Positions 16,791-25,695 of a stretch of DNA of 32,286 nt are shown here, piece by piece. The stretch lies in assembly GCF_000172555.1 (NCBI RefSeq), contig NZ_ABOX02000063.1, forward strand, positions 1 through 32,286, written 5' to 3'. Position numbers and translations under genes: made by a program. Position 1 is the stretch's first letter, and every line of letters starts with the position of its first letter. The DNA comes from Pedosphaera parvula Ellin514. GTDB taxonomy: Bacteria; Verrucomicrobiota; Verrucomicrobiia; Limisphaerales; Pedosphaeraceae. A model generated the notes under the pieces. The model searched no databases. It was given only the letters and a program-made list of their open reading frames with translations, and had not been told where the DNA came from.

Positions 16791-18545
16791 CTAACCTTTC
16801 TGCAATTCCAGCCAGAATCTGCTACCCTGGCCGGCTTCAGACTCCACTCCCACCCTGCCGTTCATCCGTTCCGCCGCCTTACGCACAATTGCCAATCCAA
16901 TCCCGGTTCCTTCGTGGTCCTTATTTAGCTTCTGGAATATTCCAAAAATCTTCTCCTGTGCATTCTTGGGGATGCCAATTCCGTTGTCTTCAAACCATAG
17001 TCGCACCCGATCACTTCTTTCTTCCGCCCAAATGCACACCTTCGGCCCCATCCCCGGACTCACAAACTTGACCGCGTTGCCCAGCAGGTTGGAAATACAC
17101 TGTGTCAAGGCGGCTTCGTTGGCGCTCACCATCGGAATTGGACCATCGATGACAATCTCCGCCTGCGAAAGCTGCAGGTTGGGATAGCTTTCAACTATTC
17201 CGCGAATCAGCTTCTCAAGATCCACGGTTTCCATTTTTAATTCCACCTGCGATGCCCTGCTGAATATCAGCACATCCTGGATCAAGCGATCCATGCGGCT
17301 CGCCGATGTTGTGATCCGCCGGAGGTAATCGCTCCCCTCTGGTCCCACTTTGTTTCCGCAATCCTCCTGCAACGCCTGTGCAAATCCCTGCATCGAACGC
17401 AACGGGGCTCTTAAATCATGTGATATGCTGTAAGAAAAAGCTTCCAGGTCGCCAATCGTTTCCTGCAATTTCACAGTCCGCTCCTGCACCAGCTTTTCCA
17501 GATGCTTGGCTCGTGATTGCAACAATTCCTGGATTTCCCGCAATGCTTCCGTGGTGCGAACTCGCTCAGTGATATCATGGTTCAAAACCACGACACCCAT
17601 CACTTTTCCACCTTCCACCACTGGCACCGTGGCATTCGCCAAAACTTTCCTTAAGCCATCAAAACTCTCGATATCCACCACTTCATCAAGAATGACTTTG
17701 CCGGTTCGAAAGCTGCGTGCGCCGCCCCATTCTTCCCCGGTAATCCGCTGGTCGGTTCCGTGACGCCACGCCTTATATTCGCCAAACTGATCGACGCCAA
17801 CGTATCGGACGTCGCTCCAAATATTCTTGGCGGCGGGGTTTCCATAAATAATTTTCCCTTCCTGGTTGATGAACCAGACTCCCACCGGCAAATGTTCCAA
17901 AATTGCACGCTGCCGTGCCTCAGCCTCGCGCAAGGCATTCTCAACCAATCGTTGCTCCGTGATATCTGAGATTGTGCCTGCCCATTCCTGCAAAACTCCA
18001 CTCTCATCCCTGAATGGAATCCCGCGCACTGACAGCCACCGCCACTGGCCATCTTTGCGGCAAACGCGGTAGTCGATGATATAGTCTCGTCCCTCCTGTA
18101 AGGCCCGCTCAAAATCCTTTCGCACACGTTCCTTGTCCTCGGGATGCACCGCTTCCAGCCAACCCCATCCTCGTGACTGCTCTGGTTCTTGACCGGTTAA
18201 TTCATTCCACCAGCGGTCTGCTTCCGGCTGCGCCTCGGACTGCTTCGTTTGATCGAGACAATGCCGCCAAACACAATGACTGCTGGCCACCACCAACATG
18301 CGGAATCGCTCCTCGCTTCGTCTCAACTGCTCCTGTGCAACCTTGAAATCATGAATGTCTGTCGCCGTCCCAATCCAGTCTTCTATCGTGCCGTCAGCTC
18401 CCCTTGCTGGGAACCACGCGTGCCATATGCCAGCGGTATTCTCCGTCATGCCTCCTGAGTCGATACTGCAGTTCGTATGCCGCTCCTTTCGATATGCCGG
18501 CACCTCGGGCCTGGAAGGTTGTCGCCATGTCATCCGGATGAACAA
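16791..18545 (-). CDS. multi-PAS sensor histidine kinase, C-terminal part (separated by frameshift)
   Basis: The frame gives 584 residues, but the first 47 or so are a different reading of the upstream PAS domain; meaningful sequence begins at RGADGTIEDWIGTATDI. Then come PAS3 (about 85-200), PAS4 (about 212-330), a coiled-coil linker, HisKA with phospho-acceptor His376 in SYSISHDLRAP, and HATPase_c: NLLGN (486-490, N box), DNGIGI (520-525, G1) and GTGIGL (546-551, G2). All catalytic motifs are intact. It would autophosphorylate and pass phosphate to a response regulator, none of which is encoded nearby. It belongs to one gene with the piece at 18394-19149; the join requires removing one base at the 18400-18403 run. 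The start at 18545 is only formal. Confidence 0.85.
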   Translation of the reverse strand: MFIRMTWRQPSRPEVPAYRKERHTNCSIDSGGMTENTAGIWHAWFPARGADGTIEDWIGTATDIHDFKVAQEQLRRSEERFRMLVVASSHCVWRHCLDQTKQSEAQPEADRWWNELTGQEPEQSRGWGWLEAVHPEDKERVRKDFERALQEGRDYIIDYRVCRKDGQWRWLSVRGIPFRDESGVLQEWAGTISDITEQRLVENALREAEARQRAILEHLPVGVWFINQEGKIIYGNPAAKNIWSDVRYVGVDQFGEYKAWRHGTDQRITGEEWGGARSFRTGKVILDEVVDIESFDGLRKVLANATVPVVEGGKVMGVVVLNHDITERVRTTEALREIQELLQSRAKHLEKLVQERTVKLQETIGDLEAFSYSISHDLRAPLRSMQGFAQALQEDCGNKVGPEGSDYLRRITTSASRMDRLIQDVLIFSRASQVELKMETVDLEKLIRGIVESYPNLQLSQAEIVIDGPIPMVSANEAALTQCISNLLGNAVKFVSPGMGPKVCIWAEERSDRVRLWFEDNGIGIPKNAQEKIFGIFQKLNKDHEGTGIGLAIVRKAAERMNGRVGVESEAGQGSRFWLELQKG

Positions 18546-19149
18546 AGTCCGACCAATTCCAATTCTTATTTCGCGGATCTTCTCCTATATAGGCATACCA
18601 ACGCTCGTTGACGTAGAGTTTTTCACCAGCCGGATCATTGATCCAGACTTGTTGGTGCATGCAATTGATGAGCGTGCGGAACCGCTCTTCACTGGCTCGC
18701 AACACCTCCGCCGCCTGCTTCTGTTCGGTGATCTCCGTCGTTAGTAGCGTCAACCCTTCAGGCGTGGGAAAGGCCCGGTTCTCAAACCATCGTTTATACG
18801 ACTCGTGATAGTATTCAAACTGCACCGGCACTTGTTGTTCGATGACCCTCTTCAGTTCAGTCTCCAACAGTGTGCCTGCCGCATCTGGAAACACCTCGGT
18901 CAGCAGCCTGCCCACTATTTGCTCACGCAACATCCCGCTGGCCTGCAACATGCGGTCATTCACGTAGGTATAGCGCAACTCCTTGTCCAGCATGAGGCAC
19001 ATGTCGCTGACACTGTTCATCACCATTTCCAGCTGCTTCTTCACCGCCTCTGCCTCCGCCACCAGTCCCCTTTCATGCCCGGTCATGGTTCCAGTTGCCG
19101 CCCTATGTTCCGGCTGACCATGGTCTGAAGTCGAAAAACTGCTGTTCAT
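18394..19149 (-). CDS. multi-PAS sensor histidine kinase, N-terminal part (ends at frameshift)
   Basis: 251 residues. PAS1 spans about 36-150 (MVMNSVSDMCLMLDKELRY to LLTTEITEQKQAAEVL) and a second PAS/PAC from about 160 (INCMHQQVWINDPAGEKLYVNE) breaks off at YRLRRHDGEYRWHMARVVPSKGS. The normal PAC ending (ADGTIEDWIGTATDIHDFK) continues directly in the next frame. No signal peptide or TM helix is present, so the kinase is soluble. If the shift is a sequencing error or is bypassed, the full product has about 785 residues: PAS-PAS-PAS-PAS-HisKA-HATPase. Confidence 0.82.
   Translation of the reverse strand: MNSSFSTSDHGQPEHRAATGTMTGHERGLVAEAEAVKKQLEMVMNSVSDMCLMLDKELRYTYVNDRMLQASGMLREQIVGRLLTEVFPDAAGTLLETELKRVIEQQVPVQFEYYHESYKRWFENRAFPTPEGLTLLTTEITEQKQAAEVLRASEERFRTLINCMHQQVWINDPAGEKLYVNERWYAYIGEDPRNKNWNWSDFVHPDDMATTFQARGAGISKGAAYELQYRLRRHDGEYRWHMARVVPSKGS
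18400..18403 (-). other. frameshift point in the sensor kinase gene (G4 run)
   Basis: On the coding strand the text is GTT CCC AGC AAG GGG AGC TGA. Deleting one G of the four-G run gives AAG GGA GCT GAC, i.e. K-G-A-D, and joins both halves of the PAC motif exactly. A single extra base is therefore the simplest explanation. Confidence 0.85.
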
Positions 19150-19264: not shown

Positions 19265-22200
19265 TTAAACGGTCGTTTTAACCGCTTTTAACCGCGGCTT
19301 TCCCGCTCGATGCACCCGCAACGAATGCCCGCGTCCATTCTCATATGGTTCCACGGTCGCGGTCACCTCGAGAACCGGGTACCGCACGGTTGCCAACCCA
19401 TAACTGCGATAGGTCCTGGCAAATAGTTCTGTCTCTATAATCCCCGTCCAATCGGCCAGGGTCAGGAACTTCATCAGCTCGCCGGTGGTCTGATGATGCA
19501 TCCGTTGCTCGATGATCAACCCACACAGAATCACTTCCTCGCCAATATGATCGCCCAATTTATCCACGGAACAATAAGTCTCCCACGCAATCTCTTCATG
19601 TAATTCCAATGGATGCCCGCTCACCGGGAATCCGAACAACTCCGCCTCCCATTGCAACTGCTCACGCCGGGACGGCTCTTCCAATTGCATCTCGGGCAAT
19701 TGCTCCATCCCCGGCGGCGGCAGCAACCATCCTTGCTTCAAATCCATCGATGCCCCATAGGCGCGCTTCAAAAACTGGCACTCCCAAAATTGTTCTGTTC
19801 GCTTTTTTCCAAACCGATCAAATGCCCCCACACGCAACAATAACTCCATCTCTTCACCGGAAGCCCCCACTCGTCGATAAAAATCATTCAACGATTCAAA
19901 CAGCCTCTGCTGGTGCTCTTTCAAAATTCGCTCATTGGTCTTCGCCGTCAGTCCTTTGATATAACGAATCGGCACACGAATAAACTTTTCCGTCGGGACA
20001 AAATGTGGTCCGGGCTCGCTCACGCACGGCGGCAGCAGTTGGAGACCCAATCGATGACACTCCAGCACATACACCAGCGGATCGTAAAACCCCTTCCCGT
20101 TGGAAAGCACCGCCGCCATGAATTCCACCGGGTAATTCAACTTCAGCCAGGCGGATTGATAAGCCTCGATGCCATACGCTGTGCTATGCGCCTTGCAAAA
20201 TGCGTAACCTTCAAATCCACTCGCCAGTTCCCACACTTCCTGGATGTTCTCTTCCGCATGTCCCCGCGCCCGCGCCGACGCAATAAATTCCTGGCGAATC
20301 TCCTCAATGGTTTCCTGCTTATACTTGTTTAATGCCCGACGCAATACATCCGCGCGACCCGGCGGCAACCCTGCAAAGGCTTCACAAATCTGCAGAATAT
20401 GTTCCTCATACACCACCAACCCATGGGTGCTTTTCAAACATGCTTCAAGTGACGGATGCGGATAACTGGGCGGCTCCATCCCTTGATAACGCCGCGTGAA
20501 CTTCACCTTCTTCTGCTCGTTCGCCGCCCCGGGCCGGATCACGCTCACAATCGCTATCAACCCGTCAATCTCACTCACGTTGCACATGCGACACAAACTC
20601 ACCATCGCCGGACTCTCGATATGATGCACCGCCCGCGCTCCACCACCGGAAATCATTTCCCAGACACGTTTATCTTCCCACGGTTCCAGCGCTGCCAAAT
20701 CAAATTGAATCCCTCGCTGCCTCAACCCCTCATCCATGTCGCGCATGACTGCCAACCCACCCTGCGCCAACACATCCATCTTGATCAACCCGATCATCTC
20801 CACCGCATCCATATCGTAATGCGTCGTGGGATACCCCTTGTTCGCGATAAACGTTGGCGTCAACTCATGCATCGGTTGTCGCGACAACACCAGCCCGCAC
20901 GGATGCATCTTTGCATAGCGCGGAAATCCATCCAAAAACTCCGCCATCTCCAATGCCGATTTGTAAGGGTCCTCCTCCAACGGCAGGTCACCGCATTCCT
21001 GGTGTTCCTTCAAAATCTCCGTCAAGCCAATCGCTGCCGTATGCGGAATGCGCTCAGTGAACCGCCTGATCTGAAATTCCGAAACGCCCAATACCTTCGC
21101 CACATCCGCAACGGCGCCACGCGCTTGATAAGTCGAAAACCCGCCGACGATTGCAGTCTTCTCCTCCCCATACTTTTTGAAAATTAAATCAATGACATCA
21201 TCCTTCCGGTCATGGGGAAAATCCACGTCGATGTCTGGCAGCTTGTTCAACGCCATCCGGTCCTTGTTAAGAAAACGCCGAAAATAAAGCTCAAACCGGA
21301 TCGGACAAACCCCGCTAATCTCCAGGCAATAACAGACCAACGAATCCGCCGCACTTCCGCGCGTGATCCATTCGATTCCTTCCTTTTTGCAACTCTGCAA
21401 AATGTCCCACATCACCAGGAAATATTCCTCATAACCCACCTCCTCGATGATACTCAACTCCTCTTCCACCTGCTTTCGATGCTTCTCCGCCCGGTCCTTA
21501 TAGCGCTTCTCCAATCCGTCCATCACCAATTTGCGCAATAATGCTTTTGACGATAATCCATCCCGTGTCGCAAACGCCGGGAACTGTGGCGGCCCAAATG
21601 GAAATTCAAACGAGCAACGTTCCGCAATCTCATTCGTATTCACCAATAACTCCGGATGTTCCCCAAACATTCTCTGCATTTCCATGGGCGAACGAAAATG
21701 CAACTGCCCACCCATGATTTTCTCCGGATGTTCCTGCTTCAATAACGTCAGCGTGCGAATCGATTGCACCACGTCATACTTCCACCGGTCTCCCGGCACC
21801 GCATAACGACAGGCCAGTGCTGCCACACACGGCCATTCACGCGGCGCGTCTCGCATTGCTTCACGCGAGTTCACGGCAAAATAAAATCGCCCGGGAAAAA
21901 ACGGTGCAAGCAGTCGATTATAACTCACCGCCAGCAAACCTTCTGTCCTTCCCTCCAGTTCCCGCGCAGTCAGCTCCTTCGGCGCCGAGAGCAGGTGGCA
22001 CAGGTTGTGATAGCCCTTCGTGTTTTCCACGTAGAACAACGCCGGGATGCCGCCCACCTTCACACGCACCCCCAATACCGGTTTGATTCCCGCCTTTTTC
22101 GCCGCCAACACAAATTCAGCCGCACCATGCAAATTCCCGTCATCAGTCAACGCCACTGCGGGCAATTCATAACGTCGCGCCAGGTTCACCACCCCTTCAA

Positions 22201-23506
22201 CCGATAGCGTGGAATTCAAAAAGGAGTAATAGCTGTGCATGTTCAACGGCAGGTAATGCTTCACCTTCACTCGCGTTGCCACTTGCCGTCTGGGAGCTGA
22301 GGCCAGCACCCGGCTCTTCACAGCTTTGTAATCGGGACTCGCCTCGCGCAATTGGAAATCGTGTCCGCGCAAAATCACCTGCTTGCCGCGACTCTGCCGC
22401 AACTGATCCACCGCGCTTGCGAGCCGTCTCTTCGCCTCATGTTGTTCCGCCGATCGTTCCAACGCCAATTCCGCGCGGAATATTCCGCTGTAAACATTCG
22501 AAAGCCGCAGCGACACCATTCGCAAACTCACCCGCCGCCGCCACGCTTGTTTCATTAACACCCGTATCCGGCCATAAATATCCGTCTCCAAATCCGTCGG
22601 CTCCAGCAGGCTCTCGCCTGCCTGATCCTCGGCCATGTCGTTGTAACGCACCTTCACGGTGAGTGTGCGAATGGTCTTGTCATCAGCCCGCACCTGCGCC
22701 ATCAAGCTGTCCGCCATCCGTTTCAACGTCGCCTCGATGAATTCCTCATCGGTCTGGTCCACACCAAACGTTTCTTGATGACCGTACGACTTCGCCGGTT
22801 CGCTCTCCTGTATTAATGGCCGCTCATCAATCCCATCGGCAAACTCCTTCAGGCTTCGCGCCATGTTCCCCATCAGCAACTGCAATAAATCCAACGGGGT
22901 TTTCGCAATATGCCCAATTCTGATCAACCCGGCCGCATTCAACTTTGTCGCGGTCGTCGGTCCCACGCCCGGCAGCCATTTGTTTGGCAGCGGATGCAAA
23001 AATGGAATCTCACCTCCCAACGGCACCTGTTTGAACGCTGCCGGCTTGTTCAGCTTGGAAGCAATCTGGCTCACCAGCTTGTTGCAGGCGATTCCCTCGC
23101 TCACCGTGATTTTTAATGCCCCCCTGATGGCCCCGCGAATGATCTCCGCTATCTCTAATGGCGATTTCCGCGCCCCGGTCAAATCGAAGTAACCTTCATC
23201 AATCGAACTGATCTCCACCTCAGGTGTGAAATCGTACGCGTACGAAAACATCCAGCGGGAAAATCGCTCATACTTCTCGAAATCTCCCGGCACGATGATC
23301 AGCTTCGGACACAGCTTGCGCGCCCGCACAGTCGGCATCGGCGTGTAAACACCAAACTTCCGCGCCTCATAGGAAGCCGAGGCAATGATGCCGCGCTTTT
23401 CTCCTCCCACCGCCATGGCCTTGCCCCGCAATCGCGCATCCGCCGCCTGCTCCACTGAAGCAAAGAACGCGTCCGCATCCAGGTGGACAATCGCCCGCGC
23501 TCTCAT
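19265..23506 (-). CDS. dinB-dnaE: fusion of DNA polymerase IV (DinB) and DNA polymerase III alpha (DnaE/ImuC type)
   Basis: One continuous 1,413-residue frame carries two complete polymerases. Residues 1-390 are Y-family: IVHLDADAFFASVEQ with Asp10, SSIDEGYFDLTG with Asp103/Glu104 (all three metal ligands kept, unlike ImuB), and thumb motif LPGVGPTTATKLNAAG. After a short linker, 415-1413 are C-family: a degenerate PHP domain (LNMHSYYSFL and TDDGNLHGA, lacking several metal histidines), LPDIDVDF with Asp758/Asp760, KMDVLA with Asp911, IKGLTAKTNERI (HhH-like) and an OB-fold near 1320-1390. It should do translesion synthesis. The frame is open to an ATG at 23527, but GAGG five bases before the ATG at 23506 and the DinB N-terminus favour 23506. 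lexA lies upstream, same strand, after 493 bp. Confidence 0.93.
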   Translation of the reverse strand: MRARAIVHLDADAFFASVEQAADARLRGKAMAVGGEKRGIIASASYEARKFGVYTPMPTVRARKLCPKLIIVPGDFEKYERFSRWMFSYAYDFTPEVEISSIDEGYFDLTGARKSPLEIAEIIRGAIRGALKITVSEGIACNKLVSQIASKLNKPAAFKQVPLGGEIPFLHPLPNKWLPGVGPTTATKLNAAGLIRIGHIAKTPLDLLQLLMGNMARSLKEFADGIDERPLIQESEPAKSYGHQETFGVDQTDEEFIEATLKRMADSLMAQVRADDKTIRTLTVKVRYNDMAEDQAGESLLEPTDLETDIYGRIRVLMKQAWRRRVSLRMVSLRLSNVYSGIFRAELALERSAEQHEAKRRLASAVDQLRQSRGKQVILRGHDFQLREASPDYKAVKSRVLASAPRRQVATRVKVKHYLPLNMHSYYSFLNSTLSVEGVVNLARRYELPAVALTDDGNLHGAAEFVLAAKKAGIKPVLGVRVKVGGIPALFYVENTKGYHNLCHLLSAPKELTARELEGRTEGLLAVSYNRLLAPFFPGRFYFAVNSREAMRDAPREWPCVAALACRYAVPGDRWKYDVVQSIRTLTLLKQEHPEKIMGGQLHFRSPMEMQRMFGEHPELLVNTNEIAERCSFEFPFGPPQFPAFATRDGLSSKALLRKLVMDGLEKRYKDRAEKHRKQVEEELSIIEEVGYEEYFLVMWDILQSCKKEGIEWITRGSAADSLVCYCLEISGVCPIRFELYFRRFLNKDRMALNKLPDIDVDFPHDRKDDVIDLIFKKYGEEKTAIVGGFSTYQARGAVADVAKVLGVSEFQIRRFTERIPHTAAIGLTEILKEHQECGDLPLEEDPYKSALEMAEFLDGFPRYAKMHPCGLVLSRQPMHELTPTFIANKGYPTTHYDMDAVEMIGLIKMDVLAQGGLAVMRDMDEGLRQRGIQFDLAALEPWEDKRVWEMISGGGARAVHHIESPAMVSLCRMCNVSEIDGLIAIVSVIRPGAANEQKKVKFTRRYQGMEPPSYPHPSLEACLKSTHGLVVYEEHILQICEAFAGLPPGRADVLRRALNKYKQETIEEIRQEFIASARARGHAEENIQEVWELASGFEGYAFCKAHSTAYGIEAYQSAWLKLNYPVEFMAAVLSNGKGFYDPLVYVLECHRLGLQLLPPCVSEPGPHFVPTEKFIRVPIRYIKGLTAKTNERILKEHQQRLFESLNDFYRRVGASGEEMELLLRVGAFDRFGKKRTEQFWECQFLKRAYGASMDLKQGWLLPPPGMEQLPEMQLEEPSRREQLQWEAELFGFPVSGHPLELHEEIAWETYCSVDKLGDHIGEEVILCGLIIEQRMHHQTTGELMKFLTLADWTGIIETELFARTYRSYGLATVRYPVLEVTATVEPYENGRGHSLRVHRAGKPRLKAVKTTV

Positions 23507-23999
23507 TTCTCCCTCGGTAGCCCTCATGATGGCTAAATTAAGTCAATTTATTCGTGAGGAACGTAATTTCACCGCAGTTGCACTAAGTGAAGTGGGGAGA
23601 GTTTTGGCAGGAAAGGCCATTCGAGTGACTTGCGAATGGCTTTCGTCAAACCGTCATTCCAGCCCACATTTTTCTTATCTGACCTCGGCAAACCGGCGAC
23701 TTTCTTAAGGCCCGCAGGGTCGGCATGTCTATAGGAATCAATCCCCAAAAGAATCCCCGCTTCGGCCCGCGATTCTAAACAGTTCCATCCAGGCAACCCG
23801 AAGCGGCACCCATCAGCGCAATCCAGCGCATCCCTCGTTATTCATGCCAATACTTTACTCACTTCACTTGAACGAAGAATGAGGCGCGGGCATATCGCGT
23901 GGATCTGTAAGCGGCGAAAGATCCAATTAAATCTTTCCGACAACCTGGTCCCACCGCGCACAAACACGTGGCGTAAACAACCCTGTTACCAGGCCTCTC
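23507..23999. other. 493-bp gap between lexA and the polymerase fusion gene
   Basis: No recognisable gene. A minus-strand frame at 23569-23796 (75 codons) has no known motif. A 9-bp inverted repeat CCGCTTCGG (23757-23765) / CCGAAGCGG (23798-23806) with a 32-bp loop is present. TTGACT on the minus strand near 23545 is a possible -35, without a good -10. I found no clear TGTTC-N4-GAACA LexA box. The space would fit a decayed imuA-like gene, but no remnant can be recognised. Confidence 0.4.
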
Positions 24000-24623
24000 T
24001 TACTTGCTGCGTCTCCGAATCAGGGCAATCATCACCCCTTGGATCACCAGTTCATCCGCTGGAATCAACTTGGAATACTTTGGATTTTCCGCGCGCAAAT
24101 AGGTTTTGCTGCGCTCCTTCACATAAGTCTTGAGCGTGCTCTCGTTGTCAATCAACGCCGCCACCACATCGCCCACCTTGGCCTCGACGCCGTGTTCCAA
24201 AATCACGATGTCGCCCGGACAAATGTTTTTGCCAATCATCGAATCGCCTCGCACTTCCAGCGCAAAGGTGCGCGTCGTCGGCTTGATGTTCAACGTGCCA
24301 ACATCAATCGACACACATCCCCGCGCCTCCTCGTAACGATTTTCCGCGAGACCAGCCGGAATGGATCCAAAGACCGGGATATCCACCACCCGCTTGCGAA
24401 ACGCTTGCAGCGGGGAAACCACTCGCAAGGTGCGCGCCAATCCCGGCTCACTCACCAACGCGCCTTTTTTCCTCAACGCTTCCACATGGTCCGTCACCGT
24501 GCGCGGACTGCGAAACCCAAAATGGGCCGCAATGTCACGCATGCTCGGCGTGATTCCATCCTTTTGTTGGCATTTTAGGATATACTCCAAAATCTGATTC
24601 TGCCGCCTTGTTATCTTATGCAT
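24000..24623 (-). CDS. lexA: LexA repressor (SOS regulator, S24 autopeptidase)
   Basis: 207 residues. Winged HTH 1-70: ITRRQNQILEYILKCQQKDGITPSMRDIAAHFGF with recognition helix SPRTVTDHVEAL (39-50). Cleavage site Ala90-Gly91 in FGSIPAGLAE. Catalytic Ser128 in RGDSMIG and Lys165 in STLKTYV complete the S24 dyad, so RecA-stimulated self-cleavage should work. The frame is open upstream to 24662, but MHKITRRQ at 24623 fits the family start, and the proposed promoter overlaps the extra 13 codons. The gene lies between DUF72 (73 bp upstream) and the DinB-DnaE fusion downstream, which suggests it controls them. It may be the only LexA or a cassette-specific paralogue. Confidence 0.93.
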   Translation of the reverse strand: MHKITRRQNQILEYILKCQQKDGITPSMRDIAAHFGFRSPRTVTDHVEALRKKGALVSEPGLARTLRVVSPLQAFRKRVVDIPVFGSIPAGLAENRYEEARGCVSIDVGTLNIKPTTRTFALEVRGDSMIGKNICPGDIVILEHGVEAKVGDVVAALIDNESTLKTYVKERSKTYLRAENPKYSKLIPADELVIQGVMIALIRRRSK

Positions 24624-24639
24624 ACTATCTACGTGTATG
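24621..24639. promoter_or_regulatory. candidate autoregulatory operator at lexA start: CATAC-N9-GTATG
   Basis: Perfect 5-bp inverted arms (24621-24625 and 24635-24639) span from the candidate -10 box to the start codon of lexA. The position is ideal for autorepression. The sequence does not match TGTTC-N4-GAACA, the LexA box I recall as reported for Verrucomicrobium spinosum. No second copy was found near the polymerase gene. Confidence 0.35.
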
Positions 24640-24662
24640 GGTCGGAAAGCGAATCCTGTCAA
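24634..24662 (-). promoter_or_regulatory. lexA: candidate lexA promoter
   Basis: On the minus strand a perfect TTGACA (24657-24662) is followed after 17 bp by CATACA (24634-24639). The start point would be near 24627, only about 4 nt before the ATG at 24623, implying a nearly leaderless mRNA; no Shine-Dalgarno site is present. Confidence 0.5.
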
Positions 24663-24696: not shown

Positions 24697-25695
24697 TTAC
24701 GTTAACTTTTCCAGGATGGCGATGATGGTTTGCAGCGCATTTCCCTCCAAACGGTTATTCACATACAAAAACAGTTTGCTCAACCCCTCTTTTGCCAGGG
24801 CCTTCTTGATCAATTTTGCCGCCGCCACCCGCACATCCTCATACGGTTCCTTCAACCGGTCGTACGGTTTGAACTTATCCACCGCTTCCTGATATTTCCG
24901 ACCGGGCTTCAGCAGTAATCGCGCGCCCGCAAACTCCGGATTCGTCACGCTCCCCGGCAGCTCCAGTTGGTCGCTCACCGGCGGCATCTCGGCCCAACTG
25001 TTGTACACATGGGTTACGCCATGCCGTGCCAACATCTCAAAATAGTCCGGATGGAGAAAATTCCGGTTCCGAATCTCCACACCATACCGCCAACCCTTCG
25101 GCAACTTTCCCAGGAATTGGTCCAACGCCTCCACAAAATCTCGACCGCGCGCAAAATCATGGGGACCAAACCGTGAAAACTCGAACATCAACAAACCAAT
25201 GTTCTTTTTAAACTCCTCGCACGGTTTCAGGAAGGCTGCGGCAAACAAATCCGCATTCAAAAAATGCTCATTCGGTCTGCCCGCGCGCAAACCAAACCGC
25301 GGCAGTTCGGGAAATTGTTTGATGGTGATGTCATCGGTCACCTTGAAGGTAAACAGAAAATCCTCCGGCACCTCCGAAACCAGGTTCTTAAGATAGCGTT
25401 CATCCGGGAATTTATAGTACGCCGCGTCCACGCATACGCTCTTGAACACCTCCGCATACTCGCCCAGGCACAACCGGTCAAATCGTGTCTCGGAAAATTT
25501 TCCACGGTAAATGTAACGATCCTCCTGATACAACATCCCGCGCCAACCTGGATATTTCCACGACGACGTCCCGATGTAGATACCCTTGTCCGCCAGTCCG
25601 GAGATCGATGCCTTCAGCTTGTCTCGATCAAATGCCGTCCCGGAAGAATTGGCCGTTGGAAGCAATAAATTGGGTTGGCTGGCATTGTCGCTCAT
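24697..25695 (-). CDS. DUF72 (YecE-like) TIM-barrel protein
   Basis: 332 residues. IYIGTSSWKYPGWRGMLYQ (about 35-53) is the DUF72 start; FSETRFDRLCLGEYAEVFKSVCVDAAYYKFP, DFLFTFKVTDDITIK, GLLMFEFSRFG, WRYGVEIRNRNF and THVYNSWAEMPP follow in family order, and LFLYVNNRLEGNALQTI near the end matches the conserved NN-x-x-G-x-A segment. DUF72 proteins are TIM-barrel folds with no settled biochemical role, though some sit near DNA-repair genes. GAGGGG gives a ribosome site before the ATG. It is on the lexA strand, 73 bp upstream of it, so read-through from this gene into lexA is possible. Confidence 0.9.
   Translation of the reverse strand: MSDNASQPNLLLPTANSSGTAFDRDKLKASISGLADKGIYIGTSSWKYPGWRGMLYQEDRYIYRGKFSETRFDRLCLGEYAEVFKSVCVDAAYYKFPDERYLKNLVSEVPEDFLFTFKVTDDITIKQFPELPRFGLRAGRPNEHFLNADLFAAAFLKPCEEFKKNIGLLMFEFSRFGPHDFARGRDFVEALDQFLGKLPKGWRYGVEIRNRNFLHPDYFEMLARHGVTHVYNSWAEMPPVSDQLELPGSVTNPEFAGARLLLKPGRKYQEAVDKFKPYDRLKEPYEDVRVAAAKLIKKALAKEGLSKLFLYVNNRLEGNALQTIIAILEKLT

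Follow-up and report, generated by a model that had tools for sequence, protein, structure and literature searches.

Can a single bacterial protein carry two complete DNA polymerases of different families, and what would such a protein do? This question is raised by a stretch of 32,286 nucleotides of Pedosphaera parvula Ellin514 (Verrucomicrobiota; Limisphaerales; Pedosphaeraceae), positions 1 to 32,286 of contig NZ_ABOX02000063.1, hereafter the window, in which one minus-strand gene joins a Y-family polymerase (PolY) to a DnaE2-type polymerase. A first-pass annotation had singled out this gene as a fusion of an apparently active DinB with DnaE. Our results indicate that the fusion is real but no one-off: it belongs to a widespread, patchily distributed cassette of one verrucomicrobial order, usually adjoining lexA, and it is likely to be a translesion mutasome under LexA control, synthesized as a single chain.

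The fused frame and its two active sites

The minus strand of 19265-23527 contains a single open reading frame of 1,420 aa, from the ATG at 23527 to the stop at 19265, with zero internal stops. The frame is open across the junction near 22,264, and many stops interrupt the plus strand in the same interval and frame. The first-pass annotation had rightly described one uninterrupted frame but left its strand unstated. It started from the ATG at 23506 (1,413 aa), which appears to be the likelier start because alignments to most homologues begin only at about residue 8-13 of the longer form and because GAGGGAG sits directly 5′ of this codon. Residue numbers below refer to the 1,420-aa form (P0001) and equal those of the annotation plus 7. 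The gene lies in a genome of 7.41 Mb in 102 contigs (95.9% complete), and its parts are as follows.

19265..23527, minus strand: PolY-DnaE2 fusion gene; the ATG at 23527 gives 1,420 aa, the likelier ATG at 23506 gives 1,413 aa
22493..23506, minus strand: Y-family (DinB/Pol IV-type) polymerase, residues ~8-345, with catalytic Asp17, Asp110 and Glu111 and steric gate Phe22
22355..22435, minus strand: RecA-NT-like motif, residues 365-391, with a predicted helix at 358-380
22247..22354, minus strand: variable tether, residues 392-427
19268..22246, minus strand: DnaE2-type polymerase, residues 428-1420, with catalytic Asp765, Asp767 and Asp918 and a broken PHP metal site
19721..19735, minus strand: beta-clamp-binding-like motif QGWLL, residues 1265-1269, aligned with Gln920 of E. 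coli alpha

Both polymerases are complete, as had been claimed: all Pfam domains of the DinB and DnaE types were matched in the single frame, namely IMS (16-158), IMS_C (246-345), PHP (428-515), DNA_pol3_alpha (663-921), finger (926-1088) and HHH_6 (1161-1245). No Pfam OB model matched the protein at 0.001; its C-terminal structure model presents an all-beta region at about 1331-1409, the place expected for an OB fold. Among NCBIfam models, the fusion scored under the cut-offs of those for Pol IV (nearest PRK02406, 249.7 versus 256 bits) and passed a single Pol III model, that of superfamily TIGR00594 (617 versus a cut-off of 434). Fold searches with the structure models confirmed the two polymerase families and nothing beyond.

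The six catalytic residues named in the first-pass annotation (Asp10, Asp103, Glu104, Asp758, Asp760 and Asp911 in its numbering) are present as Asp17, Asp110, Glu111, Asp765, Asp767 and Asp918, and all are invariant in the 49 unique full-length fusions that we collected (window included). The steric gate is Phe in 45 of these and Tyr in the other four. Both active sites look competent, judging from these residues, and the contrast that had been drawn with the catalytically dead ImuB stands, the Y-family carboxylates being kept in 49/49 fusions. In the PHP domain, two histidines found in the DnaE1 of the same genome, which we take, after the motif in PMC12926913, to be metal-site ligands, are gone from the window's protein and from the 11 other fusions displayed; a broken PHP metal site is usual for DnaE2. 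The window and 11 other displayed fusions also share a three-residue insertion at 760-762 (21242-21250), just before the catalytic PDID, that is absent from all six DnaE references of the same alignment.

These data bear on the possibility that the Y half, although capable of catalysis, mainly serves as a RecA-binding and DNA-holding recruiter like ImuB, leaving bypass synthesis to the DnaE2 half. The layout does parallel ImuB-DnaE2, a RecA-NT-like motif is present, and the clamp motif persists in the DnaE half. Against a pure recruiter, the three Y carboxylates and an aromatic steric gate are retained in 49/49 fusions, the most distant pair of which is only 47% identical, whereas the dnaE-linked proteins taken as inactive (the Desulfosarcina PolY, the Streptomyces protein and the Novosphingobium ImuB) each lack at least one catalytic residue or the steric gate in pairwise comparison. 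In addition, conservation is higher in the Y half, whose median identity to the window is 71%, versus 65% for the DnaE half. We consider a mainly scaffolding Y half unlikely.

The genome encodes other polymerases: one further IMS protein (a standalone 375-aa frame) and one further DnaE (a 1,227-aa frame, G000:C47) that groups with E. coli DnaE1 in our tree. It also presents one RecA-family match (PF00154); no dedicated ImuA search of this genome was made. The fusion need not be a housekeeping enzyme, since a separate DinB-type gene, a DnaE and a RecA are all present. The only IMS matches in this 95.9% complete genome are the fusion and the standalone frame, which leaves no match for a separate ImuB gene. 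We rejected an ordinary ImuA-ImuB-DnaE2 system for this locus.

Distribution and origin of the fusion

Is the join an artefact of assembly or sequencing? The outcome named at first pass as telling against the fusion, halves that are always separate genes, is not what we found. When 320 genomes of the order were searched with a 192-residue junction query, at least 95, spread over at least 34 family codes, proved to have a frame running across the PolY-DnaE junction (71 genomes aligned in one piece and 24 more in two pieces of one open frame). An artefact would be in keeping with the fact that most relatives are metagenome-assembled genomes and that the frame is broken in a few copies (L046, L048 and L053). 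Against it stand the 49 unique full-length fusions, drawn from many assemblies among the loci then collected, with 45 of them below 90% mutual identity; a one-contig genome of 4.73 Mb that carries the fusion (L150); and a conserved motif at the junction. We regard the artefact as ruled out for all practical purposes.

The distribution is patchy. No fusion was found in a genome of the same genus (G001) nor in two others of the same family (G004 and G005), each 93-96% complete, which argues against simple vertical retention. Across the phylum, 387 genomes yielded six matches: the window's own, two full fusions (G506 and G657), one match that runs off a 3.8-kb contig (G613) and two PHP-side matches in DnaE-sized frames (G355 and G376). 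A contig scan with exact peptide patterns, which favors close relatives, returned 61 loci, all but four titled verrucomicrobial; the four others are titled Klebsiella, 'bacterium', Kiritimatiellae and PVC group. Two genomes each carry two full fusions, every copy with its own adjoining lexA (G277, L175 and L176; G156, L177 and L178). Fusions resembling those of Limisphaerales were also found under Klebsiella pneumoniae or Akkermansia muciniphila titles (L057, L038, L052, L059, L070, L078 and L083); L057, L070, L078 and L083 nest among Limisphaerales fusions in the Y tree, and the titles of these records look wrong.

Outside the phylum, our coverage consisted of the contig scan, plasmid records, phage records and one viral-contig scan. 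No phage record covers 80% of the fusion protein. Seventeen plasmid records do, and in the eight plasmid records examined (seven of these and one with less coverage) polY and dnaE are separate. The viral-contig scan, run with residues 1-700, gave four loci at 24-27% identity that match the Y part only. A phage or plasmid origin of the fusion was rejected on these results.

Searching plasmids with tblastn identified Bacteroidota with neighboring dinB and dnaE genes: these overlap by 4 bp in Adhaeribacter and by 1 bp in Emticicia, and lie 13 bp apart in Chryseobacterium, where a LexA-family gene adjoins. Unfused neighboring polY and dnaE genes were found with LexA-family or SOS-peptidase genes close by. 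In two Persicobacter plasmids (L126 and L127), polY and dnaE are neighboring separate frames in records that are unannotated there. The fusion may have arisen from an adjacent polY-dnaE gene pair of this kind, still present in Bacteroidota.

We then built quick trees with 35 of the 49 fusions, both of which returned long-branch warnings. In the Y tree, a single clade unites the fusions with their split relatives, and the unfused PolY of G038 is its basal member (SH-aLRT 100); the grouping of this clade with Bacteroidota and Desulfosarcina is weak (SH-aLRT 85, long branches). In the DnaE tree (LG+G4), the fusions fall with the Bacteroidota and Desulfosarcina DnaE on one side (SH-aLRT 98). On the other side are DnaE1, six further unfused DnaE from the order, the DnaE2 linked to ImuB in Novosphingobium, and a Streptomyces DnaE designated DnaE2B in PMC12926913, whose position there argues against a neat DnaE2B group. 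Six loci with an extra unfused DnaE come from genomes of the order in which no fusion was found, and at four of them an ImuB-like gene directly adjoins this DnaE (L163, L165, L166 and L167); two of these four neighbors were checked and both confirmed as IMS proteins.

Some lineages possess the two halves as separate genes. A free Y-half frame of 402-444 aa was found in six genomes (G092, G099, G100, G101, G143 and G270), three of which (G100, G101 and G143) present an intact DnaE frame on another contig; the DnaE gene is broken in G092, and a further genome (G090) has a fragmented Y gene next to an intact DnaE in its gene set. The catalytic residues are kept in the split copies tested, and lexA still lies 5′ of the free Y gene at L136, L138, L140, L148 and L149, though not at L142. 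Three other apparent splits (G154, G132 and G006) were discarded as contig ends. The intact split DnaE genes represent three changes of state on the DnaE tree, and the four tested (G090, G100, G101 and G143) nest among the fused ones. An approximately unbiased (AU) test rejected monophyly of the 35 fusions to the exclusion of these four (p-AU 2.4e-9), and with it the idea that these genes are a separate, older unfused line in the order. This is why the splitting looks secondary. The covalent join is not essential, since some lineages have split the protein with both halves intact.

Linker, clamp motifs and lexA

What else does the cassette offer a translesion polymerase? Comparing the linker with RecA as single sequences gave results no better than shuffles, and we therefore used profiles. 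With hhalign, the linker profile of the 49 fusions matched that of 31 RecA N-termini with a probability of 76% (P = 2.4e-5) over 23 ungapped columns, corresponding to residues 7-29 of RecA, its N-terminal oligomerization stretch. When 63 windows of 38 residues were taken along RecA, the top five were those starting at residues 1-21 (P from 3e-5 to 0.004), and the best of the remaining 58 reached P = 0.05. By this profile match, residues 365-391 correspond to the RecA-NT motif that Timinskas and Venclovas reported in 2019 (consulted part of PMC6511836), whose role in the ImuB-ImuA′ contact has been tested experimentally (consulted part of PMC11791113). The first-pass annotation had supposed that no separate recruiter would be needed. 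This is half right: the polymerases are covalently joined, but the motif predicts that RecA remains a partner. The tether that follows is variable, at 29-139 aa in the 49 fusions (median 38), with a median identity to the window of 19% and low confidence in the structure model at 399-421.

In the DnaE half, the pattern Q..[LIM][LFIV] was found around the position of E. coli alpha Gln920 in 44/49 fusions, and we infer that this half docks the chain on the sliding clamp through the putative motif. In the Y half, none of the 49 fusions presents a canonical QxxLF after the little finger; 41 retain an ELxL-like remnant, and remnants such as AELPLD stand where UmuC and the Bacteroidota PolYs carry QxxLF. 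The consulted part of PMC11791113 describes the reverse in mycobacteria, where the clamp motif belongs to the catalytically dead ImuB and is missing from DnaE2. The division of labor would thus be inverted: the Y part is apparently active, and the clamp motif sits in the DnaE part. At the base of the fusion clade, the unfused PolY (L169) reads EELPLF at this position, its Gln already gone, and for this reason the loss on the Y half may be older than the fusion event.

These motifs also bear on whether the fusion reflects joint expression only, i.e., a neutral joining of overlapping genes whose product is cut in the tether to release two independent ordinary enzymes. Several unfused relatives do overlap or almost abut, the tether is variable and secondary fission occurs. 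On the other hand, fusions extend across at least 34 family codes of the order, and the loss of the Y clamp motif is expected if the DnaE half tethers the Y half. This last argument is weakened by the basal PolY without Gln and by the free Y genes, which are likewise degenerate. We find it rather improbable that the two halves work apart.

On the 5′ side of the fusion lie the following features:

24000..24623, minus strand: lexA, 207 aa, LexA_DNA_bind and Peptidase_S24; the genome has no other LexA_DNA_bind match
24622..24643, minus strand: weak degenerate match to an operator-like palindrome (score 5.7), where relatives carry a strong one
24697..25695, minus strand: gene of a DUF72 protein, upstream of lexA

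Among the 44 fusions for which 1 kb or more of upstream sequence is available, 42 have a same-strand lexA within 1 kb upstream, the exceptions being L075 (lexA 3.9 kb off) and L180. Frame to frame, 34 of the 42 lexA-linked loci show a gap of at most 50 bp. Of 47 regions upstream of lexA, 22 contain the dyad TACT-N12-AGTA, whereas in five shuffled sets no dyad was seen in more than 4. Iteration extended it to the palindrome ATACTGTTCATATGAACAGTAT, which mostly touches the lexA start. Using a matrix trained on the same regions that it scored, 37/46 relatives (42 with the fusion and four with a free Y gene) exceeded a score of 12, relative to shuffles with a 95% level of 2.3, a 99% level of 7.5 and a maximum of 13.8. 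The Verrucomicrobia box TGTTC-N4-GAACA was rejected, since the window holds no more matches to it than chance would give (10 versus 13.5 expected). Just downstream of the fusion (16791-19149, minus strand) lie two overlapping frames, one with PAS and the other with PAS and HisKA/HATPase domains, which may be one sensor kinase split into two frames.

Proposed mechanism and comparison with known systems

How might such a chain work? Upon DNA damage, RecA filaments would induce LexA self-cleavage and the lexA-polY::dnaE2 operon would be expressed. The chain would dock on the sliding clamp through QGWLL of its DnaE half and bind RecA via the RecA-NT motif; the Y half would insert opposite the lesion, the tethered, non-proofreading DnaE2 half would extend the distorted end, and DnaE1 would then resume. 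From the conservation of both active sites we infer that insertion would pass over to extension within the same chain, in cis. The fusion would fix a 1:1 stoichiometry and replace an ImuB-type bridge between subunits. A LexA-controlled translesion mutasome in one chain appears probable to us. The fuller scheme, in which a single polypeptide performs two-polymerase bypass in cis (Y inserting, DnaE2 extending, RecA regulating, clamp contact on the DnaE side), we hold tentatively, at a little under an even chance.

Several observations weigh against this reading. In the window itself, a gap of 472 bp with no evident gene (23528-23999) lies between lexA and the fusion and showed no sigma-70-like promoter, and the best site near lexA scores a weak 5.7, between the 95% and 99% shuffle levels. 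The training of the operator matrix on the scored regions counts here as well. The palindrome is present upstream of recA in only 1/30 regions (L182-L211), so a shared box before recA was rejected, and the LexA of the cassette may govern no classical SOS regulon and perhaps little beyond its own cassette. With a full-length RecA profile the same register wins, yet with a probability of 13% and P = 0.002, and the single-sequence comparison failed, as noted above. The structure models derive from shallow alignments, the first being unreliable for residues 1-169, and the palm of the Y half was modelled at low confidence. Finally, close relatives without the fusion and the dispensable join must be counted on the same side.

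To our knowledge, a self-contained inserter-extender enzyme has no counterpart. Cooperation of Y-family polymerases with DnaE2 in bacterial mutagenesis is hard to dissect, partly because the natural complexes are multi-subunit. A naturally occurring single chain whose two active sites are both intact would make insertion and extension separable by single active-site mutants, with the natural fission lineages as the unfused control. The cassette also retains lexA and a RecA-binding-like motif while lacking a separate ImuB.

The absence of a characterized protein of this layout, asserted at first pass, agrees with our searches. No report of a PolY-DnaE fusion was found in the literature searched (most subscription papers and all preprints lay outside its scope), and as far as searched the fusion is unreported. 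The 2026 survey of Timinskas et al. (PMC12926913) covers more than 3,000 complete genomes and defines 11 types of PolY/DnaE2 association, with separate subunits in the parts consulted; the word 'fusion' is absent from its main text, where two uses of 'fused' concern other proteins. No protein of this layout appears in the consulted parts of PMC3919608 and PMC3765255, and of the 60 PDB sequences listed among 78 matches, none covers both halves.

E. coli Pol IV (DinB) and Pol III alpha (DnaE) share the domains and catalytic residues of the respective halves but are unfused, and the DnaE half of the fusion falls outside DnaE1 in our tree. ImuA-ImuB-DnaE2 likewise combines a Y-family protein and DnaE2 in a LexA-linked cassette with a RecA-NT motif; its ImuB is dead and separate, whereas the Y part here is fused and apparently intact. 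Plasmid Do28_1 of Desulfosarcina ovata (L128) presents the window's four gene kinds in a different arrangement, lexA-DUF72-polY-dnaE, with separate polymerases; it matches the fusion at about 31% identity, and its PolY, with Asn at position 17 and Gly at 111, is probably inactive. ImuA-ImuB-DnaE2 had been the system of comparison at first pass, but the published PolY and DnaE2B pairs, often with lexA, are nearer: in the consulted parts of PMC6511836 and PMC12926913, two apparently active polymerases are already paired in the DnaE2B-PolY-RecA type of Bacteroidetes. That type combines an active Y-family polymerase bearing a RecA-NT motif with a DnaE2 from a group whose PHP is usually inactive, as the fusion appears to do with its broken PHP site. 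Its operons often include lexA, and its Bacteroidetes DnaE falls on the same side of the tree as the DnaE half (SH-aLRT 98). It consists of two genes and two subunits where the fusion is one chain, and we read the fusion as a putative covalent, ImuB-less variant of this published lexA-linked type.

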